Source: a virus
Length of the DNA stretch: 20,542 bases
Reading direction: 5' to 3' (one strand)
IMG/VR virus record: IMGVR_UViG_3300030109_003033
Location: 1 to 20,542 of that record
Below the pieces are notes generated by a model that saw only the letters and a program-made list of their open reading frames with translations, did no database searches and was not told where the DNA came from. A program made the position numbers and the translations under genes. Shown in pieces: positions 15,880-20,198 of the stretch (position 1 is its first letter; each line of letters begins with the position of its first letter).

Positions 15880-16407
15880 ATGCCTTACAAGCTTGGTGAT
15901 CGCACGCTTCAGTTGGACGTAGCCTGGGATTACAACGACGTTCAATATCCTGCTAATTGGTTGCGCCTCAGCACTGATCAAGACCGTTCGGAGCTTGGTA
16001 TTGAGTGGGTCAATAATGACCCCACGTGGAATCAGAAGTGGTATTGGGGCTATGACGCTGACGGCAATTTGATTCCTAAGACCTACACAGACTTAAAAAC
16101 TCTGTGGGTCAACAATACAACCGACACGGCATACAAGCTGTTGCAGCCCTCTGATTATTTGTGGGGCAAGTTGCAGCAGCAGAACAGCAGCTTCGCAGCA
16201 GCTAAAACGGCATACGACGCATCTCCCTGGAGCACATGGCGAGCAACCATCCGCACTGAAGCTGCAGCGATGGTGACTGCAATTGAAAACACCGCAAGCG
16301 TTGGCGACACTTCACCACATGCAGATTTTGGAAGAGTCCAAGCGTTGCAGGAATACATCGAGGGCGGCAGCTATAACGTCTGGACACCCAACCCAGACAA
16401 CGCATGA
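15880..16407 (+). CDS. Putative tail fibre assembly/chaperone-like protein
   Basis: The protein has 175 residues. The N-terminal half has 'YPANWLRLSTDQDRSELGIE' (residues 23-42) and 'QKWYWGYDADGNLIPKTYTD'. The C-terminal half is helical, with 'LLQPSDYLWGKLQQQN' and 'PWSTWRATIRTEAAAMVTAI'. A short beta N-terminus describing 'Y.G.....P' followed by a helical 'T.D....R.....Y..WR..+R' part resembles tail-fibre assembly proteins (DUF4376 type), and the place directly after the fibre and adhesin genes agrees. An alternative is a small virion component. It starts at ATG 15880, 23 nt after the adhesin; its stop overlaps the next ATG (ATGA). Confidence 0.45.
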   Translation: MPYKLGDRTLQLDVAWDYNDVQYPANWLRLSTDQDRSELGIEWVNNDPTWNQKWYWGYDADGNLIPKTYTDLKTLWVNNTTDTAYKLLQPSDYLWGKLQQQNSSFAAAKTAYDASPWSTWRATIRTEAAAMVTAIENTASVGDTSPHADFGRVQALQEYIEGGSYNVWTPNPDNA

Positions 16408-16487
16408 TTTCAGTTCTAGGTATCGGCGCTCTTGGGGCGTTACTTTTGATCGGCTATTCACTGCTGGCAATCAATGAACCGTCCTGA
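16404..16487 (+). CDS. 27-residue single-pass membrane peptide
   Basis: The frame encodes MISVLGIGALGALLLIGYSL followed by LAINEPS. Nearly all of it is one hydrophobic helix of about 22 residues with small residues (GIGALGA) that could pack helix to helix. The ATG overlaps the previous stop in the same ATGA pattern as its neighbours, and the next gene starts 14 nt before its stop, which supports real translation. The function is unknown. It could be a holin-like or membrane-protein regulating peptide. I cannot tie it to any named photosystem subunit. Confidence 0.5.
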   Translation: MISVLGIGALGALLLIGYSLLAINEPS

Positions 16488-16647
16488 CCCGATGATTCCG
16501 TGCAAGCCTGAGGCGCAAGACGTTGAGGCAATGGCCAACAGGGTTAAGTGGCTAGATGCCTTGTACCTGCGTGATGGTCGTGACAATGCTGACCACGAGT
16601 TTCATGGCGTTTACACTGGCTTGGTTTTGAAGTACCAGAATCAATGA
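16474..16647 (+). CDS. 57-residue conserved cyanophage-type protein with HGVYTGL motif
   Basis: The protein is small and soluble: 'ANRVKWLDALYLRDGRDNAD' (residues 21-40) then 'HEFHGVYTGLVLKYQNQ'. I recall small picocyanobacterial and cyanophage proteins with the same 'LD.LY..DGRD...H..HG.YTGL' pattern; none has a function I know. There is one Cys near the N-terminus and no signal peptide or membrane segment. The ATG at 16474 lies inside the end of the 27-residue gene, and the stop TGA (16645-16647) overlaps the next ATG. Confidence 0.7.
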   Translation: MNRPDPMIPCKPEAQDVEAMANRVKWLDALYLRDGRDNADHEFHGVYTGLVLKYQNQ

Positions 16648-16829
16648 CCAAGCTGTTTGCAGCACTGCTCGGCCTAGGGATTGCTTTTGGGTCGTCTGCT
16701 TTGTCTCATCACAAATACGCACCAACTCAATCGGTGGACATGATTGAAAATGGACACCTCATTACTACTGAAAAGGCAGAAAGCCAGTACGGTAGTCACG
16801 GAAAAAACGTACCGCACGTCCACCAATGA
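16644..16829 (+). CDS. Small secreted His-rich protein
   Basis: The protein has 61 residues. 'MTKLFAALLGLGIAFGSSAL' is a typical Sec signal peptide: Lys at position 3, a hydrophobic core, and small residues at the likely cut near residues 20-21. The mature part of about 40 residues is polar with 6 His, including 'SHHKYAP' at the start and 'HGKNVPHVHQ' at the end. This could bind metal ions in the periplasm, but that is inference. It overlaps the following exported protein gene (ATGA), so the two are probably made together. Confidence 0.65.
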   Translation: MTKLFAALLGLGIAFGSSALSHHKYAPTQSVDMIENGHLITTEKAESQYGSHGKNVPHVHQ

Positions 16830-17191
16830 TCAAGACAACTGTTTTTGGTGCAGCCGCTGGCGCTCTTGCCTTGGCTCCCCTCTCTGCAATCGCTGGCCCT
16901 TACGCCAACATTGAAGCAAACGCTGGCTGGAGCGGAAACGACTACAGCGGATCTGTTACAGACATCCACCTGGGTTTTGAAGGTGGCGAAGGCCCCTATA
17001 GCTGGTATCTGCAGGGCGGTCCAGCAGTCGTTCAGCCTGATGGCGCTGATTCTGAACTTGAGTTCTCTGGCAAAGTTGGTGGCTCAGTTGCTGCTTCTGA
17101 GAAGCTTTCCGTTTACGGCGAGATCTCAGGCATCACTGGCGACGACAACAATAGCTACGGCGGAAAAGCTGGCGTTAAGTTCCTTTTCTGA
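16826..17191 (+). CDS. Exported miniature outer-membrane beta-barrel-like protein
   Basis: The protein has 121 residues. 'MIKTTVFGAAAGALALAPLS' plus 'AIAGPYANI' is a clear Sec signal with an A-I-A cut site near residue 23. The mature part of about 98 residues is a series of alternating polar/hydrophobic strands: 'YANIEANAGW', 'VTDIHLGFEG', 'YSWYLQGGPAVVQ', 'LEFSGKVGGSVA', 'LSVYGEISGIT' and 'YGGKAGVKFLF'. It ends in Phe with an aromatic/hydrophobic pattern, the usual signal for BAM-dependent insertion into the outer membrane. About six strands is short for a barrel (OmpX has eight), so it may oligomerise or be non-canonical. It is the last gene before a strong terminator. A role in altering host outer-membrane permeability or superinfection is speculative. 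Confidence 0.65.
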   Translation: MIKTTVFGAAAGALALAPLSAIAGPYANIEANAGWSGNDYSGSVTDIHLGFEGGEGPYSWYLQGGPAVVQPDGADSELEFSGKVGGSVAASEKLSVYGEISGITGDDNNSYGGKAGVKFLF

Positions 17192-17223: not shown

Positions 17224-17270
17224 AACCGTCGAGTGGGATAAAACCCTCACACCAAGCTCGACGGTTTTTT
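17224..17270 (+). terminator. Rho-independent terminator
   Basis: AACCGTCGAG (17224-17233) pairs perfectly with CTCGACGGTT (17257-17266), and the run TTTTTT (17265-17270) follows. The 23-nt loop holds a possible inner GGG/CCC pairing (17235-17237 with 17244-17246). It ends the late tail/secretion transcript 33 nt after the outer-membrane-like gene. Confidence 0.9.
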
Positions 17271-17286: not shown

Positions 17287-17526
17287 ATGCAAAAGTATCT
17301 GAACGCTTTGGGCGCAGTTGGTTTTGTCCTAGCCGCCTGCAATACCGCAGTCATTGTTTTTGCTGTGGTACGTGGGCCAAGTCTTGTTGAGGAAAACCTT
17401 GGCAAGATCCAAGCATTGATGATTGAAAAGATGCACAGTGCTCTCAGTGATTCTGTGACTGAGGCAATGCCCAGCCAGGTCAAAGAGATGATGCCTAGTA
17501 CGACTGGCCCTGCTTTGCCGTTTTAG
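17287..17526 (+). CDS. Small membrane protein with amphipathic C-terminus
   Basis: From ATG 17287 it has 79 residues. 'YLNALGAVGFVLAACNTAVI' and 'VFAVVRG' form one membrane helix (residues 3-30), followed by an amphipathic Glu/Lys helix with many Met ('LGKIQALMIEKMHSALSD', 'AMPSQVKEMMPS'). ATG 17272 is in frame but lies 1 nt after the terminator U-run; homologues as I recall begin near 'M.KYLN.LG..GF', so I prefer 17287. No Shine-Dalgarno sequence is visible. It is joined to the next gene by TAGTG. The function is unknown; the gene pair occurs in cyanophages as far as I remember. Confidence 0.6.
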   Translation: MQKYLNALGAVGFVLAACNTAVIVFAVVRGPSLVEENLGKIQALMIEKMHSALSDSVTEAMPSQVKEMMPSTTGPALPF

Positions 17527-18143
17527 TGCCACAGATTCGCACTATTGGGATTAACGACGTTCGGGTTTGGGACGGCATCCCTGCCATGTCCGTTCCAAAA
17601 GCCCCACCTGTCACAGTCAATATCGGCGTGCCAGTCATCGACATGCCGACATTTGACCCAATGGACTTCAGGCCAAAGAAGTCAGTTGTGGACCCTAAAG
17701 CTGTCTTGCCGAACCCAGACACGTCGTCGTCTGAAGCACCAAAGCCTCCAACGCCAGCTCCGCTTCAGCTTCCCAAGACTGCTGTTGACGAAGATCCAAG
17801 ATGTCCTCCCCTTCGTGCGAAGGAGGTTGGAACGCTTGTTCAAGGTGGTTCAAAAAGAATTGCTGGCTACGAGATACAAGACGGTAAATGCGTCGTCCTG
17901 TATGAAGAGATCACGTTGCCTAGGCAAGTTATAGCAGCAATTCCGTCACTGCCGCAGGTAACAACTGTCGGGGTAACTGCTGCTGTTGGTGTGACTGCAG
18001 CGTTAGCAACACCGTTTTTATTGAAGCTGGTCAAACCTATCGTGAAAAAGATAGGCAAAAAGATCAAGGCTTTGCTGGGTCGTAAGGCGAAACCTGTAAG
18101 CGTGTTTGAGAGGAGGCGGGCTCAGCGGTTGGCACGGAAATAG
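17526..18143 (+). CDS. Conserved cyanophage protein with VRVWDGIPAMSVPKAPP motif
   Basis: The protein has 205 residues from GTG 17526, sharing one base with the previous TAG. Residues 4-30 contain 'RTIGINDVRVWDGIPAMSVP', a segment I recall almost word for word from cyanophages including T4-like ones. A Pro/Ser-rich linker follows (about 45-90), then a small domain with two Cys ('EDPRCPPLRAKEVGTLVQGG', 'GKCVVLYEEITLP'). Residues 145-165 are Ala/Val/Thr-rich and hydrophobic, and the tail is strongly basic ('VKPIVKKIGKKIKALLGRKA'), suggesting membrane association. The function is unknown. Its last 80 nt overlap, antisense, the 3' end of the minus-strand operon. Confidence 0.7.
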   Translation: MPQIRTIGINDVRVWDGIPAMSVPKAPPVTVNIGVPVIDMPTFDPMDFRPKKSVVDPKAVLPNPDTSSSEAPKPPTPAPLQLPKTAVDEDPRCPPLRAKEVGTLVQGGSKRIAGYEIQDGKCVVLYEEITLPRQVIAAIPSLPQVTTVGVTAAVGVTAALATPFLLKLVKPIVKKIGKKIKALLGRKAKPVSVFERRRAQRLARK

Positions 18144-18918
18144 CGTGCCTATGGGGCAAGACTTGCCCTGGCTTTGGCTTAATCATCACGTCAGCGCAGA
18201 CAGCAAAGTAAGGCGACTTGGGATGGAACTCAATGCCTTTGAGTTTCAGCTCACCGCAGTTCTTGAGTCTCGCGATTTCATATTCGAGGCGCTTTGTCTC
18301 AACGATCTGCTGGTGCATACGGATGTTGGCGTCAACCATTGCCTTGCATCGTTCTTGAAGTCCACCATCTAAGGGAATTGTGGCTTGGAGCGACAAACCA
18401 CCTGACCAGTTGTGAGTATCTTTTTGACCTGTCCTTTTTCGCATGTGATAGAGGATTGATCCAGGATTGTCGAGTAACCCATCCTCATCAAGATCAGAAA
18501 GATCATATACGGGATCAAGAAAGTGGCCCACGAACGGATCTTGCCAGCTCTTGGTTCTGTTGACATAAGGAGTGACGGTAAGTGTTGGGCCTTGGCATTG
18601 AATGCCATTGCCGTAGGTGTTTTGGAACGCTGCGCTAGGCGCAATCATCACCGCTTGGTTTGTGACGCTGCCAGAGCTTGTGGCAGTTGGAGCGGCAGTG
18701 GCAGACACGCCACCGATTGTTTCGGCGTTAGCAGGTGACGCTAGGACTACTGCGAGAAGGTAGAGATAGTGTCTGTGATTTGTTTTATTTCCGTTACGCG
18801 ATCGATTGTGGTTACGTTGCTTAGACCTGGGCCAGAGAAAGTTTCTGCGAACTGAAATGCCGCGCCAGGATTGGTGATCTTCCAGCTTGGTTTGTTGCCC
18901 ACGTCGAGAGATGACCAT
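18064..18918 (-). CDS. Exported Cys-containing protein (last gene of minus operon); start unclear
   Basis: The open frame is 284 residues from ATG 18918, but its first roughly 48 residues overlap the previous gene and look non-conserved (rich in Arg, Asn, Ser, His). A signal-peptide-like stretch 'YLYLLAVVLASPANA' sits at residues 51-65, just where the previous gene ends. After it come 'SATAAPTATSSGSVTNQAVM' and 'GNGIQCQGPTLTVTP', segments I recall from cyanophage and picocyanobacterial exported proteins, then a helix 'IRMHQQIVETKRLEYEIARL' and 'FHPKSPYFAVCADVM'. Four Cys suggest disulphides. No NTG codon lies between about 18880 and the signal. The next start, GTG 18708, would remove it. A -1 frameshift from the upstream gene, a non-standard start or a sequence error are possible. 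The 3' end overlaps the + strand gene by 80 nt. Confidence 0.6.
   Translation of the reverse strand: MVISRRGQQTKLEDHQSWRGISVRRNFLWPRSKQRNHNRSRNGNKTNHRHYLYLLAVVLASPANAETIGGVSATAAPTATSSGSVTNQAVMIAPSAAFQNTYGNGIQCQGPTLTVTPYVNRTKSWQDPFVGHFLDPVYDLSDLDEDGLLDNPGSILYHMRKRTGQKDTHNWSGGLSLQATIPLDGGLQERCKAMVDANIRMHQQIVETKRLEYEIARLKNCGELKLKGIEFHPKSPYFAVCADVMIKPKPGQVLPHRHAISVPTAEPASSQTRLQVSPYDPAKP
18154..18168. terminator. Short perfect inverted repeat after the + strand stop (weak terminator candidate)
   Basis: GGGCAAGACTTGCCC is a perfect palindrome 10 nt after the stop of the 205-residue gene. It lacks a T run on either strand, and it lies inside the coding end of the convergent minus-strand gene. It could slow polymerase in the convergent zone but is not a good intrinsic terminator. 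Confidence 0.25.
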
Positions 18919-19172
18919 CCTTTTACGCTTGTTGTTCCTGGAGTAAGGCTGGCTCCATTTGCGGGCTCAACGTTAGTGCCACTGACAGAGTATTCCCAAC
19001 CAGTGCCATAAGACTCGCTGACAATTTTTTCAGTGACCTTGCTAGTTGTTTCCGTGTGACTGGTCATAGAGCCAGTCGTGAAGTTAGGTACGATTGGAGC
19101 AGCATGAGCTGGTTTGGCGAGAGCAAAAGCTTCGCCTAGCAATCCGCAAAACAGCAGAAGCAGAACACGCAT
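18747..19172 (-). CDS. Exported protein of unknown function
   Basis: The protein has 141 residues. 'MRVLLLLFCGLLGEAFALAK' plus 'PAHA' is a Sec signal with a likely A-H-A cut near residue 24. The mature part is Thr/Ser-rich and beta-like ('TSHTETTSKVTEKIVSESYG', 'WEYSVSGTNVEPA'), ending 'ITDTISTFSQ'. There are no Cys after the signal and no membrane helix. It is the third gene of the minus-strand operon: its ATG overlaps the stop of the upstream gene by 1 nt, and its end lies within the open frame of the downstream one. No function is recognised; the three neighbouring exported proteins probably form one complex or surface structure. Confidence 0.65.
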   Translation of the reverse strand: MRVLLLLFCGLLGEAFALAKPAHAAPIVPNFTTGSMTSHTETTSKVTEKIVSESYGTGWEYSVSGTNVEPANGASLTPGTTSVKGWSSLDVGNKPSWKITNPGAAFQFAETFSGPGLSNVTTIDRVTEIKQITDTISTFSQ

Positions 19173-19660
19173 TAGTCGATACTGAGTTCAGTAACAAATT
19201 GACCAATGCCAAGGGTGTTTGCACCGCCCGCCGTCACAGTTAAAGCACCAGTCGGTGCGATTGTGCCTGCAAGTGTTCCTGCTGTGCCTGATGCCGTTGA
19301 CTGCAAGCTGCCAAAATTTGGAGTAGTGCCTGTTGTGATTGCAGATGTTGGAACGGCATCTGCTTGCGTATATGACTGACTAAAGCTGAAAGCGTTTCCA
19401 GGTGTGTCCTGGGTTACAGCGATAGTGCCAGGATTGTAAACGCCGCTAGTAATAGTGCCAGCGGAAATAGTGTTCGCCGTATTTCCGTCGGTAGTGTCAA
19501 CGCCTGAGCCTGAAATGCTGAATGTAGAGCCAATGCGATTTGCGGTGGTCATTGCGCCACCAACTTGAAGCTGCACACTTGATTGGATTTTGTGCGTTAG
19601 ATCAGCGTTTGCTGCTGGGCTAAAAGCCAGCAACGTGATCAGAGGCAGAAAGCGTTTCAT
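19172..19660 (-). CDS. Exported Thr/Ser/Gly-rich protein of unknown function
   Basis: The protein has 162 residues. 'MKRFLPLITLLAFSPAANA' is a clear Sec signal ending in A-N-A. The mature part starts 'DLTHKIQSSVQLQVGGAMTT' and continues as Thr/Gly/Ala-rich beta repeats ('TAGTIAPTGALTV'-like), with 'SFSQSYTQADAVPT' near the middle. It has no Cys and almost no charged residues, which fits a secreted beta structure or fibre-like assembly. Its ATG overlaps the stop of the holin-like gene (ATGA), and its stop overlaps the next ATG by 1 nt. Unknown function; related exported proteins occur near it in cyanophages as I recall. Confidence 0.65.
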   Translation of the reverse strand: MKRFLPLITLLAFSPAANADLTHKIQSSVQLQVGGAMTTANRIGSTFSISGSGVDTTDGNTANTISAGTITSGVYNPGTIAVTQDTPGNAFSFSQSYTQADAVPTSAITTGTTPNFGSLQSTASGTAGTLAGTIAPTGALTVTAGGANTLGIGQFVTELSID

Positions 19661-19920
19661 TTTGGTGGCTCCTTTGAGTCAATCTTAGGCGGCTGTTTTT
19701 TCTGCTGGCCATTTGCTTTGCGCTCAATCCCAAAAGACGCCATGGATCCAGTCAGCAAGCTCGCCACAAAAGTATTGTCCATCTTCATTTCAGGGAAGAT
19801 GCCCAGATAGGACACAGTCAAGAGTGTTGCTGACCAGAACAGCACAGCGCATTTCACGAGGTCAGCAATTGCGATGCCTTCCTTTTCTGGGTTTTCTTGA
19901 CTTTCTTGCGGTTCTGCCAT
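19657..19920 (-). CDS. Small membrane protein, holin-like candidate
   Basis: From ATG 19920 it has 87 residues; an upstream in-frame ATG (19983) would add 21 residues and cross the divergent gene's start. The N-terminus is acidic ('MAEPQESQENPEKEG'), then come 'IADLVKCAVLFWSATLLTVS' plus 'YLGIF' (a membrane helix) and a second hydrophobic stretch 'DNTFVASLLTGSMASFGI'. The tail is basic ('KANGQQKKQPPKI'). Size, two hydrophobic segments and a basic tail fit a holin, which would open the inner membrane for lysis. Context is compatible, with other small membrane proteins nearby, but no endolysin is visible. It is the first gene of the minus operon. Confidence 0.5.
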   Translation of the reverse strand: MAEPQESQENPEKEGIAIADLVKCAVLFWSATLLTVSYLGIFPEMKMDNTFVASLLTGSMASFGIERKANGQQKKQPPKIDSKEPPK

Positions 19921-19946
19921 GATGGAGTCAGTGCTGAGGTCGGAGC

Positions 19947-20198
19947 ATGGTTGAAGTTTGGGCTGCTGCAGCTGGTGCGTCAATCACCGTCGCTGGTCTT
20001 GGCATCACAGGATTGAAGCAGCAGAGCTTGCAAGGGCGTGATTCGTTGGTGCGTCTGACAACTGCTGTTGATGGCCTAAGCAGGCAGCTTGACGTGCTTC
20101 ACACTGACATCAAGAGTAGAGACCAAGAAGTGTTCGCCAGGTTGAGTGATTTAGAGCAGGCTGTGGCGCGACTGGAAGGGCATAGCAATCGGAACTAA
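19947..20198 (+). CDS. Small membrane-anchored coiled-coil protein
   Basis: The protein has 83 residues. 'VEVWAAAAGASITVAGLGIT' is an N-terminal membrane helix, followed by a heptad-like helix 'LVRLTTAVDGLSRQLDVLHT', 'DIKSRDQEVFARLSDLEQAV' and 'ARLEGHSNRN'. An inner-membrane anchor plus an extended helix is the layout of i-spanins and of XhlA-like lysis proteins, so a lysis role is possible; I see no partner lipoprotein. It starts 26 nt from the divergent holin-like gene. The family is one I recall as a conserved cyanophage small protein. Confidence 0.6.
   Translation: MVEVWAAAAGASITVAGLGITGLKQQSLQGRDSLVRLTTAVDGLSRQLDVLHTDIKSRDQEVFARLSDLEQAVARLEGHSNRN

Follow-up and report, generated by a model that had tools for sequence, protein, structure and literature searches.

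What does a run of very short, overlapping genes contribute to a marine phage, and do its members act together? The question arises from a virus record of 20,542 bp (IMG/VR IMGVR_UViG_3300030109_003033), analysed over its full length and referred to here as the window, which encodes a siphovirus-like tail module that comprises a tail terminator, a tape measure, and minor tail and fibre-like proteins. The original prediction, made from the sequence, described four overlapping genes that are closed by a terminator and end in an exported, barrel-like outer-membrane protein, and proposed that they form one system that spans all cell compartments. The four open reading frames (ORFs) lie at the predicted positions and overlap successively by 14, 4 and 4 nt (Table 1). 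The run of overlaps begins earlier than had been noted, as a 175-aa ORF (15880–16407) precedes the 27-aa ORF with a 4-nt overlap. After a signal-like start, the 61-aa peptide has six His residues; the 121-aa protein also has a signal-like start and ends in LF.

Table 1. Features of the window and RNA leader sites in related loci.
Feature	Position	Strand	Remarks
27-aa peptide, single hydrophobic segment	16404–16487	+	ORF just 5′ of the 57-aa gene
57-aa soluble-looking protein	16474–16647	+	no Pfam or PHROG match
61-aa His-rich, exported-looking peptide	16644–16829	+	no Pfam or PHROG match
121-aa predicted outer-membrane protein, six strands	16826–17191	+	PF24653 Phage_OMP / phrog_417 / DUF680
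Rho-independent terminator, 3′ of the 121-aa gene	17224–17269	+	stem about 17224–17266 plus U-run
84-aa protein, hydrophobic N-terminal segment	17272–17526	+	phrog_568, E 6e-5, labelled plasmid stability
205-aa protein	17526–18143	+	phrog_570
284-aa protein	18064–18918	-	phrog_848; minus-strand operon
141-aa exported-looking protein	18747–19172	-	DUF6322, phrog_650; minus-strand operon
162-aa exported-looking protein	19172–19660	-	phrog_564, homologues annotated 'OMP1 protein'; minus-strand operon
108-aa protein with membrane segment	19657–19983	-	DUF6450; minus-strand operon
RNA leader sites	L086:4867–4912, L092:3869–3913, L125:3364–3408, L126:3367–3408, L127:3364–3408		
RNA leader sites	L128:3366–3410, L129:3363–3406, L130:3369–3414, L132:3437–3479; 102 in L133–L252		

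All four ORFs are beyond chance and under purifying selection among relatives. The median dN/dS is 0.16 for the 57-aa gene (46 sequences), 0.41 for the 61-aa gene (15 sequences) and 0.25 for the 121-aa gene (97 sequences); the 27-aa ORF, assessed from one usable pair (window and L001), has five synonymous and no non-synonymous changes. The closing terminator was also borne out, with a stem and U-run in an 84-nt stretch of predicted folding energy −23.4 kcal/mol (z −1.97). The seven relatives folded alongside the window each form a hairpin in the corresponding position, with different stem sequences. This hairpin is missing from the output of a pattern scanner that has a loop limit of 8.

The grouping of the genes fared differently. 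We tallied gene order by tblastn in 48 contigs that carry the 57-aa gene, after four duplicate fetches had been removed, and found all four genes together in a single contig (L001). Accepting any hydrophobic ORF of 18–45 aa just upstream of the 57-aa gene adds L093, L094, L095, L096 and, doubtfully, L122, which gives at most six contigs under this loose rule. Downstream sequence exceeds 700 nt in 36 contigs; of these, 32 carry the barrel gene, 13 the 61-aa gene and 15 a phrog_516 gene. The 61-aa gene is an optional neighbour that is missing or substituted in many relatives, and the 57-aa gene is present in siphovirus relatives both with and without the barrel. About 15 of 45 relatives (18 by a looser script rule) encode a peptide similar to the 27-aa one just ahead of the 57-aa gene; L099, L102 and L117 do so with no barrel downstream on the stretch examined. 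On this tally we reject the four-gene module: separation of the genes in relatives was the stated condition for refuting it, and in most relatives the four do not stay together, which leaves a system spanning all compartments unsupported. The observation itself is real and the boundaries of the unit were drawn wrongly. In L019–L022 and L097–L117, the place of the 61-aa gene is taken by the phrog_516 product, a basic peptide of about 42 aa with many Lys, Arg and Gly residues.

In the 32 contigs that carry a barrel and pass this length limit, the 84-aa gene follows it in 30 and the 205-aa gene in 31, and on longer contigs of siphovirus relatives the minus-strand operon (window 18064–19983) accompanies the block. 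The phrog_848/DUF6322/phrog_564 operon also lies about 1–10 kb from the barrel in some cyanomyoviruses (L086, L132 and about a dozen of L133–L252). Four contigs (L097, L099, L102 and L109) hold the 57-aa gene and an 83-aa gene without the block, and in L102 and L109 a lysozyme gene then follows the 83-aa gene, which identifies the block as an accessory insertion located between the tail genes and the lysis genes. Its position upstream of the 83-aa gene could suggest that the barrel assists lysis by weakening the outer membrane. We consider this extremely improbable, because the block is absent from these same four contigs, two of which have a lysozyme gene on the stretch, and because other phages carry the gene amid metabolic genes.

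The 121-aa protein matches PF24653 (Phage_OMP) from end to end (141.1 bits against a cut-off of 27; residues 1–121 on positions 1–122 of a 122-position profile) and also matches phrog_417. Homologues were found by tblastn in 469 phage records, all of which are cyanophages or marine or uncultured phages by name and many of which are annotated as DUF680. The family (PF24653, phrog_417, DUF680, PhCOG173, T4-like GC 241) is thus already known and uncharacterised, a common cyanophage accessory gene without an assigned function. A signal-like N terminus occurs in 88 of 88 members and a C-terminal Phe in 87 of 88, including the window protein, as scored with a simple script rather than SignalP. The mature phage protein has a net charge of −4 to −12 in all 32 members for which it was calculated, which fits the passage of cations.

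An AlphaFold2 model built from 88 sequences has six strands and reaches a pLDDT of at least 90 for 82 of 121 residues; a model from 32 sequences likewise has six. Hydrophobic and polar residues alternate along the strands (p = 0.0008). Positions that are at least 90% conserved make up 19 of 39 inward-facing sites versus 1 of 38 outward-facing sites; with conservation inward and variation outward, selection therefore appears to act on the inside of the predicted barrel. The best structural match of the first model is OmpA (Z 10.4, 97 residues aligned, 2.3 Å) and that of the second, deeper model is OprF (Z 9.4, 97 residues aligned, 3.8 Å). Small barrels of this kind (OmpA, OprF, OmpX and NspA) have eight strands, whereas six are predicted for the window protein, and the deeper model fits larger barrels about as well as eight-stranded ones. 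Foldseek returned no match in the PDB at E ≤ 0.001 for either model (E > 0.04 for the deeper model), and by sequence no solved structure is significantly related (best E 0.38). The structural matches are modest and non-specific, and absence from the match lists excludes no family. Among viral models, 11 matched at E ≤ 0.001: seven with PF24653-type or DUF680 names and four without a name. The structure tests covered 25 of the 32 siphovirus-type contigs. Taken with the Pfam score, the six predicted strands, the inward–outward alternation and the barrels among the best matches support the predicted exported, barrel-like outer-membrane protein.

An alternative role is superinfection exclusion or receptor masking at the host surface. 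In L093, L121 and L123, the barrel has 49–51% identity to that of the window, whereas the flanking 61-, 84- and 205-aa products have 75–88%; compared with L018, the mature barrel differs while the signal peptide region and the neighbours are alike. The exchange of the barrel as an allele favours exclusion, but the conserved positions lie inside the barrel, not outward or in loops, and the predicted strand connections are short. Moreover, phage exclusion proteins are usually lipobox-type surface lipoproteins, the features of which are absent here. A further point in favour comes from experimental evolution, in which loss of the gene was strongly selected on a particular host, as the S-TIM4 homologue acquired 13 mutations, many of them disabling, only on WH8102 (PMC6224464). 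On balance, exclusion or masking seems decidedly unlikely.

A concrete role is suggested by relatives in the host. Our search covered 300 genomes of the taxonomic family to which a Prochlorococcus single-cell genome belongs, and found PF24653 matches in 43, of which 28 were over the cut-off; a search of 14 control genomes found none. Host proteins take two forms, one of about 256 aa with two tandem PF24653 copies and one of about 320 aa with a single recognised, C-terminal copy. Tandem copies occur in five host proteins of about 256–275 aa, and Pfam recognised two stretches in all three that were tested. Host copies can be aligned along all six strands of each repeat; the similarity to the phage protein is distant (E about 1e-6 to 1e-10 for host single domains), and where the phage protein has the inward-facing His48, the host repeats have Arg. 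Several of the roughly 320-aa host proteins (L264, L265 and L273) have a His/Asp-rich insert of the HDDHDDH type, which is perhaps a metal-binding loop. No family name for the host proteins was found in NCBIfam.

We left phage-like single repeats in G001, G067 and G280 out of the host count, along with a stop-containing place in G116. The other 40 genomes yielded 41 host places; those in G018, G130, G191 and G229 are not of the two host types, and 37 loci were counted. A ZnuA, ZnuB, ZnuC, Fur-type or CobW gene is present on the stretch in 34 of the 37, no more than 249 nt away in 32, a count that is limited by the breadth of the Fur, CobW and ABC ATPase families; Pfam confirms ten zinc-type neighbours in three of the loci. 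The 34 include L280, in which the nearest zinc gene (ZnuB) is 5.7 kb away. On the stretches of L278, L292 and L298, Fur-type and CobW genes occur without ZnuA or ZnuB. Beside the host barrels of L285, L306 and L308 (a 5.9-kb contig), no zinc gene was seen. When scanned with a Zur-box consensus, six of nine host regions contain Zur-box-like sites at p < 0.05 (five of them at 0.002) and three do not; examples are three loci with a site between znuC and znuA, and L278, with one upstream of the barrel. Ten phage leaders and three stretches of the window gave no Zur-box hit to the same consensus, and no zinc gene was found beside phage copies among the named families of the window or in annotated phage neighbourhoods.

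According to one report, the synw0968–0973 cluster of Synechococcus WH8102 is repressed by Zur, and synw0972 is uncharacterised and likely to be co-transcribed with znuA (PMC9337993). The gene order in L281 (znuB–znuC / znuA–barrel) is the same as in that cluster, so synw0972 is probably the host barrel, as judged from gene position only. Enav et al. describe the phage gene as having no homologue in their host strains (PMC6224464). Within literature that left out most subscription journals, we found nothing that joins DUF680 or PF24653 to zinc or to an RNA leader. What appears to be new here, from sequence comparison, is the presence of the same domain in host zinc-locus proteins and the view of the phage protein as a single-repeat half of them. 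The repeat domain is common to both (by Pfam and by a local profile), with six alignable strands per repeat; the host barrels are two to three times longer than the phage protein and are encoded beside znu, Fur-type or CobW genes. As the phage protein has one repeat, compared with two per chain in the 256-aa host type, we liken it to the host zinc-locus barrel and do not class it as a member. The suggestion of a role in metal handling, one of three in the original prediction, thus receives indirect but strong support from the placement of the host relatives in zinc loci; the passage of metal itself is what we infer.

We propose, at a little below even confidence, that the phage protein is a 'half' of the host zinc-locus barrel that resides in the outer membrane as a dimer and admits divalent metal to the periplasm. 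The infected cyanobacterium would make the 121-aa protein, and host Sec would export it and host BAM insert it, a route suggested by the signal-like N terminus and the C-terminal Phe. There it would act as a single-repeat, six-strand version of the host barrel. To our knowledge, no natural membrane barrel made of a single chain has as few as six strands. As this is too few for a conventional membrane barrel, two copies would pair into a 12-strand barrel, a 2 × 6 dimer being the simplest assembly, or one copy would pair with a host repeat. The paired barrel would let divalent metal into the periplasm during infection; passage across the outer membrane, most likely of zinc, is suggested by the host gene neighbourhood. 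The barrel would be an accessory gene for which the 27-, 57- and 61-aa genes are not needed, and the His-rich 61-aa peptide could serve as an optional metal-binding partner. Against a zinc role, a Glutamine-II riboswitch in the leader of two podovirus-type copies points to nitrogen. Further points against the proposal are the lack of zinc genes and Zur boxes at the phage copies examined, the distant similarity to the host proteins, the Arg that replaces His48, the modest structural matches, the published link to phosphate and the statement of Enav et al. on their host strains.

Copies in other phages have different neighbours. In the podovirus records examined, the barrel adjoins psbA; in the myovirus records examined, it lies upstream of nrdC or in an hli–petE–psbA island, and S-SM2 has two copies, which pstS and phoA follow. 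In some myoviruses, a second, divergent PF24653 paralogue is located behind the first (L125:4057–4431, L164:2004–2360, and in L193, L141 and L214), and pstS was found only in three loci with this second paralogue. These settings bear on whether the protein is instead a virion component or a host-attachment protein, which we regard as very improbable. The podovirus and myovirus copies seen adjoin psbA, hli, nrdC or pstS rather than tail operons, and the signal-like N terminus, present throughout the family, also argues against a place in the particle. Published homologues conflict on this point: two peptides of a 122-aa DUF680 homologue were detected in S-SZBM1 particles (PMC9146016), whereas the S-TIM4 homologue was not particle-associated (PMC6224464). 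The two S-SZBM1 peptides may derive from co-purified outer membrane.

The S-SM2 arrangement, in which two family members lie directly upstream of pstS and phoA, raises the alternative of a phosphate-stress (PhoE-like) outer-membrane protein that allows more phosphate to enter for phage DNA synthesis, with PstS as its periplasmic partner. Consistent with this, pstS occurs in three RNA-leader loci and a second barrel in all three of them, and eight myoviruses reportedly have the gene between a pho box and pstS (Kelly et al. 2013). However, pstS accompanies the second, divergent barrel and not the window type, the protein is net acidic in every one of the 32 members, and the host relatives are in zinc loci, not pst loci. 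Scans with two- and three-unit pho-box models across 14 phage leaders and three window stretches gave a nominal signal in the S-SM2 leader only (1 of the 14 leaders; two-unit model, p = 0.010), which is unconvincing after multiple tests. Published work favours phosphate: a role in phosphate limitation is cited by Enav et al. (PMC6224464), upstream pho boxes have been reported (PMC9146016) and the gene is over-represented at BATS (PMC3686209). We regard this phosphate-stress reading as unlikely. The zinc and phosphate readings may, however, be one and the same, given the links between zinc and phosphorus supply noted in one study (PMC9337993).

Expression of the barrel in T4-like cyanophages seems to have a layer of its own. 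An RNA leader, composed of a 6-bp hairpin with a GUCG loop, a CAUC linker and a 5-bp hairpin, lies 18–28 nt upstream of the barrel start in eight annotated cyanomyovirus genomes and in L092 (Table 1). Its stems covary, with double changes in 9 of 11 pairs and a score of 0.846 versus 0.10–0.21 for slid controls. A gene-blind DNA-pattern scan returned at least 120 instances, of which 102 have both stems among the matches listed. Of these 102, 99 precede a barrel gene (98 intact and 1 frameshifted), 2 are at a contig end and 1 has no barrel; among the weak-stem instances listed, 2 of 18 precede a barrel. Each of eight complete genomes has one strong copy of the leader model, at the barrel. Most of the cyanomyovirus barrel copies seen carry the leader; as the search for myovirus loci started from the pattern of the leader itself, these counts are not a share of all myovirus copies. 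Rfam contains no match at E ≤ 5, and the leader may be a cis-regulatory RNA of a new kind.

In the window and 88 other loci, the leader model gave a single match, at E 0.75; it matched 0 of 101 host genomes in a search run without a positive control, and the leader is absent from the T4-like, barrel-carrying contig L088 and from the second S-SM2 barrel. Thus, compared with other PF24653 Phage_OMP copies, that of the window is in a siphovirus-type genome, is translationally coupled to small genes and is without the myovirus RNA leader. A broader statement is possible, which we offer tentatively and with some doubt: cyanophages of at least three genome types may carry a stripped-down host barrel that forms a metal channel, as a 2 × 6 homodimer or by pairing with the host protein, and the T4-like phages among them may control it through their own, previously undescribed RNA leader.

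The kinship with host zinc loci gives a concrete candidate role to a gene found in hundreds of phage records, connects the biology of phages with the scarcity of metals in the open ocean, and suggests that many marine phages alter the metal uptake of infected cells. If the proposal is true, a widespread phage gene would be an auxiliary metal-uptake gene, and a channel to which each chain contributes six strands would represent a novel construction of an outer-membrane barrel. The alkaline phosphatase PhoA is a zinc enzyme, so a zinc role could also reconcile the link to phosphate. The single-repeat form would provide a natural test of the growth of outer-membrane barrels by duplication, and the RNA leader an independent handle on the timing of the protein in T4-like cyanophages.

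Several further observations concern the contigs on which the barrel occurs. The barrel is present on contigs whose records name other bacteria or an archaeon, one in a Nonlabens xiamenensis assembly (L088) and four among metagenome-assembled genome contigs (L087, L089, L090 and L092). Given the T4-like phage genes on L088, the contigs L087–L090 and L092 look like phage contigs that were binned or assembled with other genomes. Glutamine-II riboswitches lie between psbA and the barrel in two podovirus-type loci (L131:3309–3364 and L091:3869–3920); in other podovirus loci the riboswitch is elsewhere, mostly downstream of psbA. Finally, a group I intron (L035:6132–6345) is located beside the psbA and riboswitch region of a podovirus-type contig.
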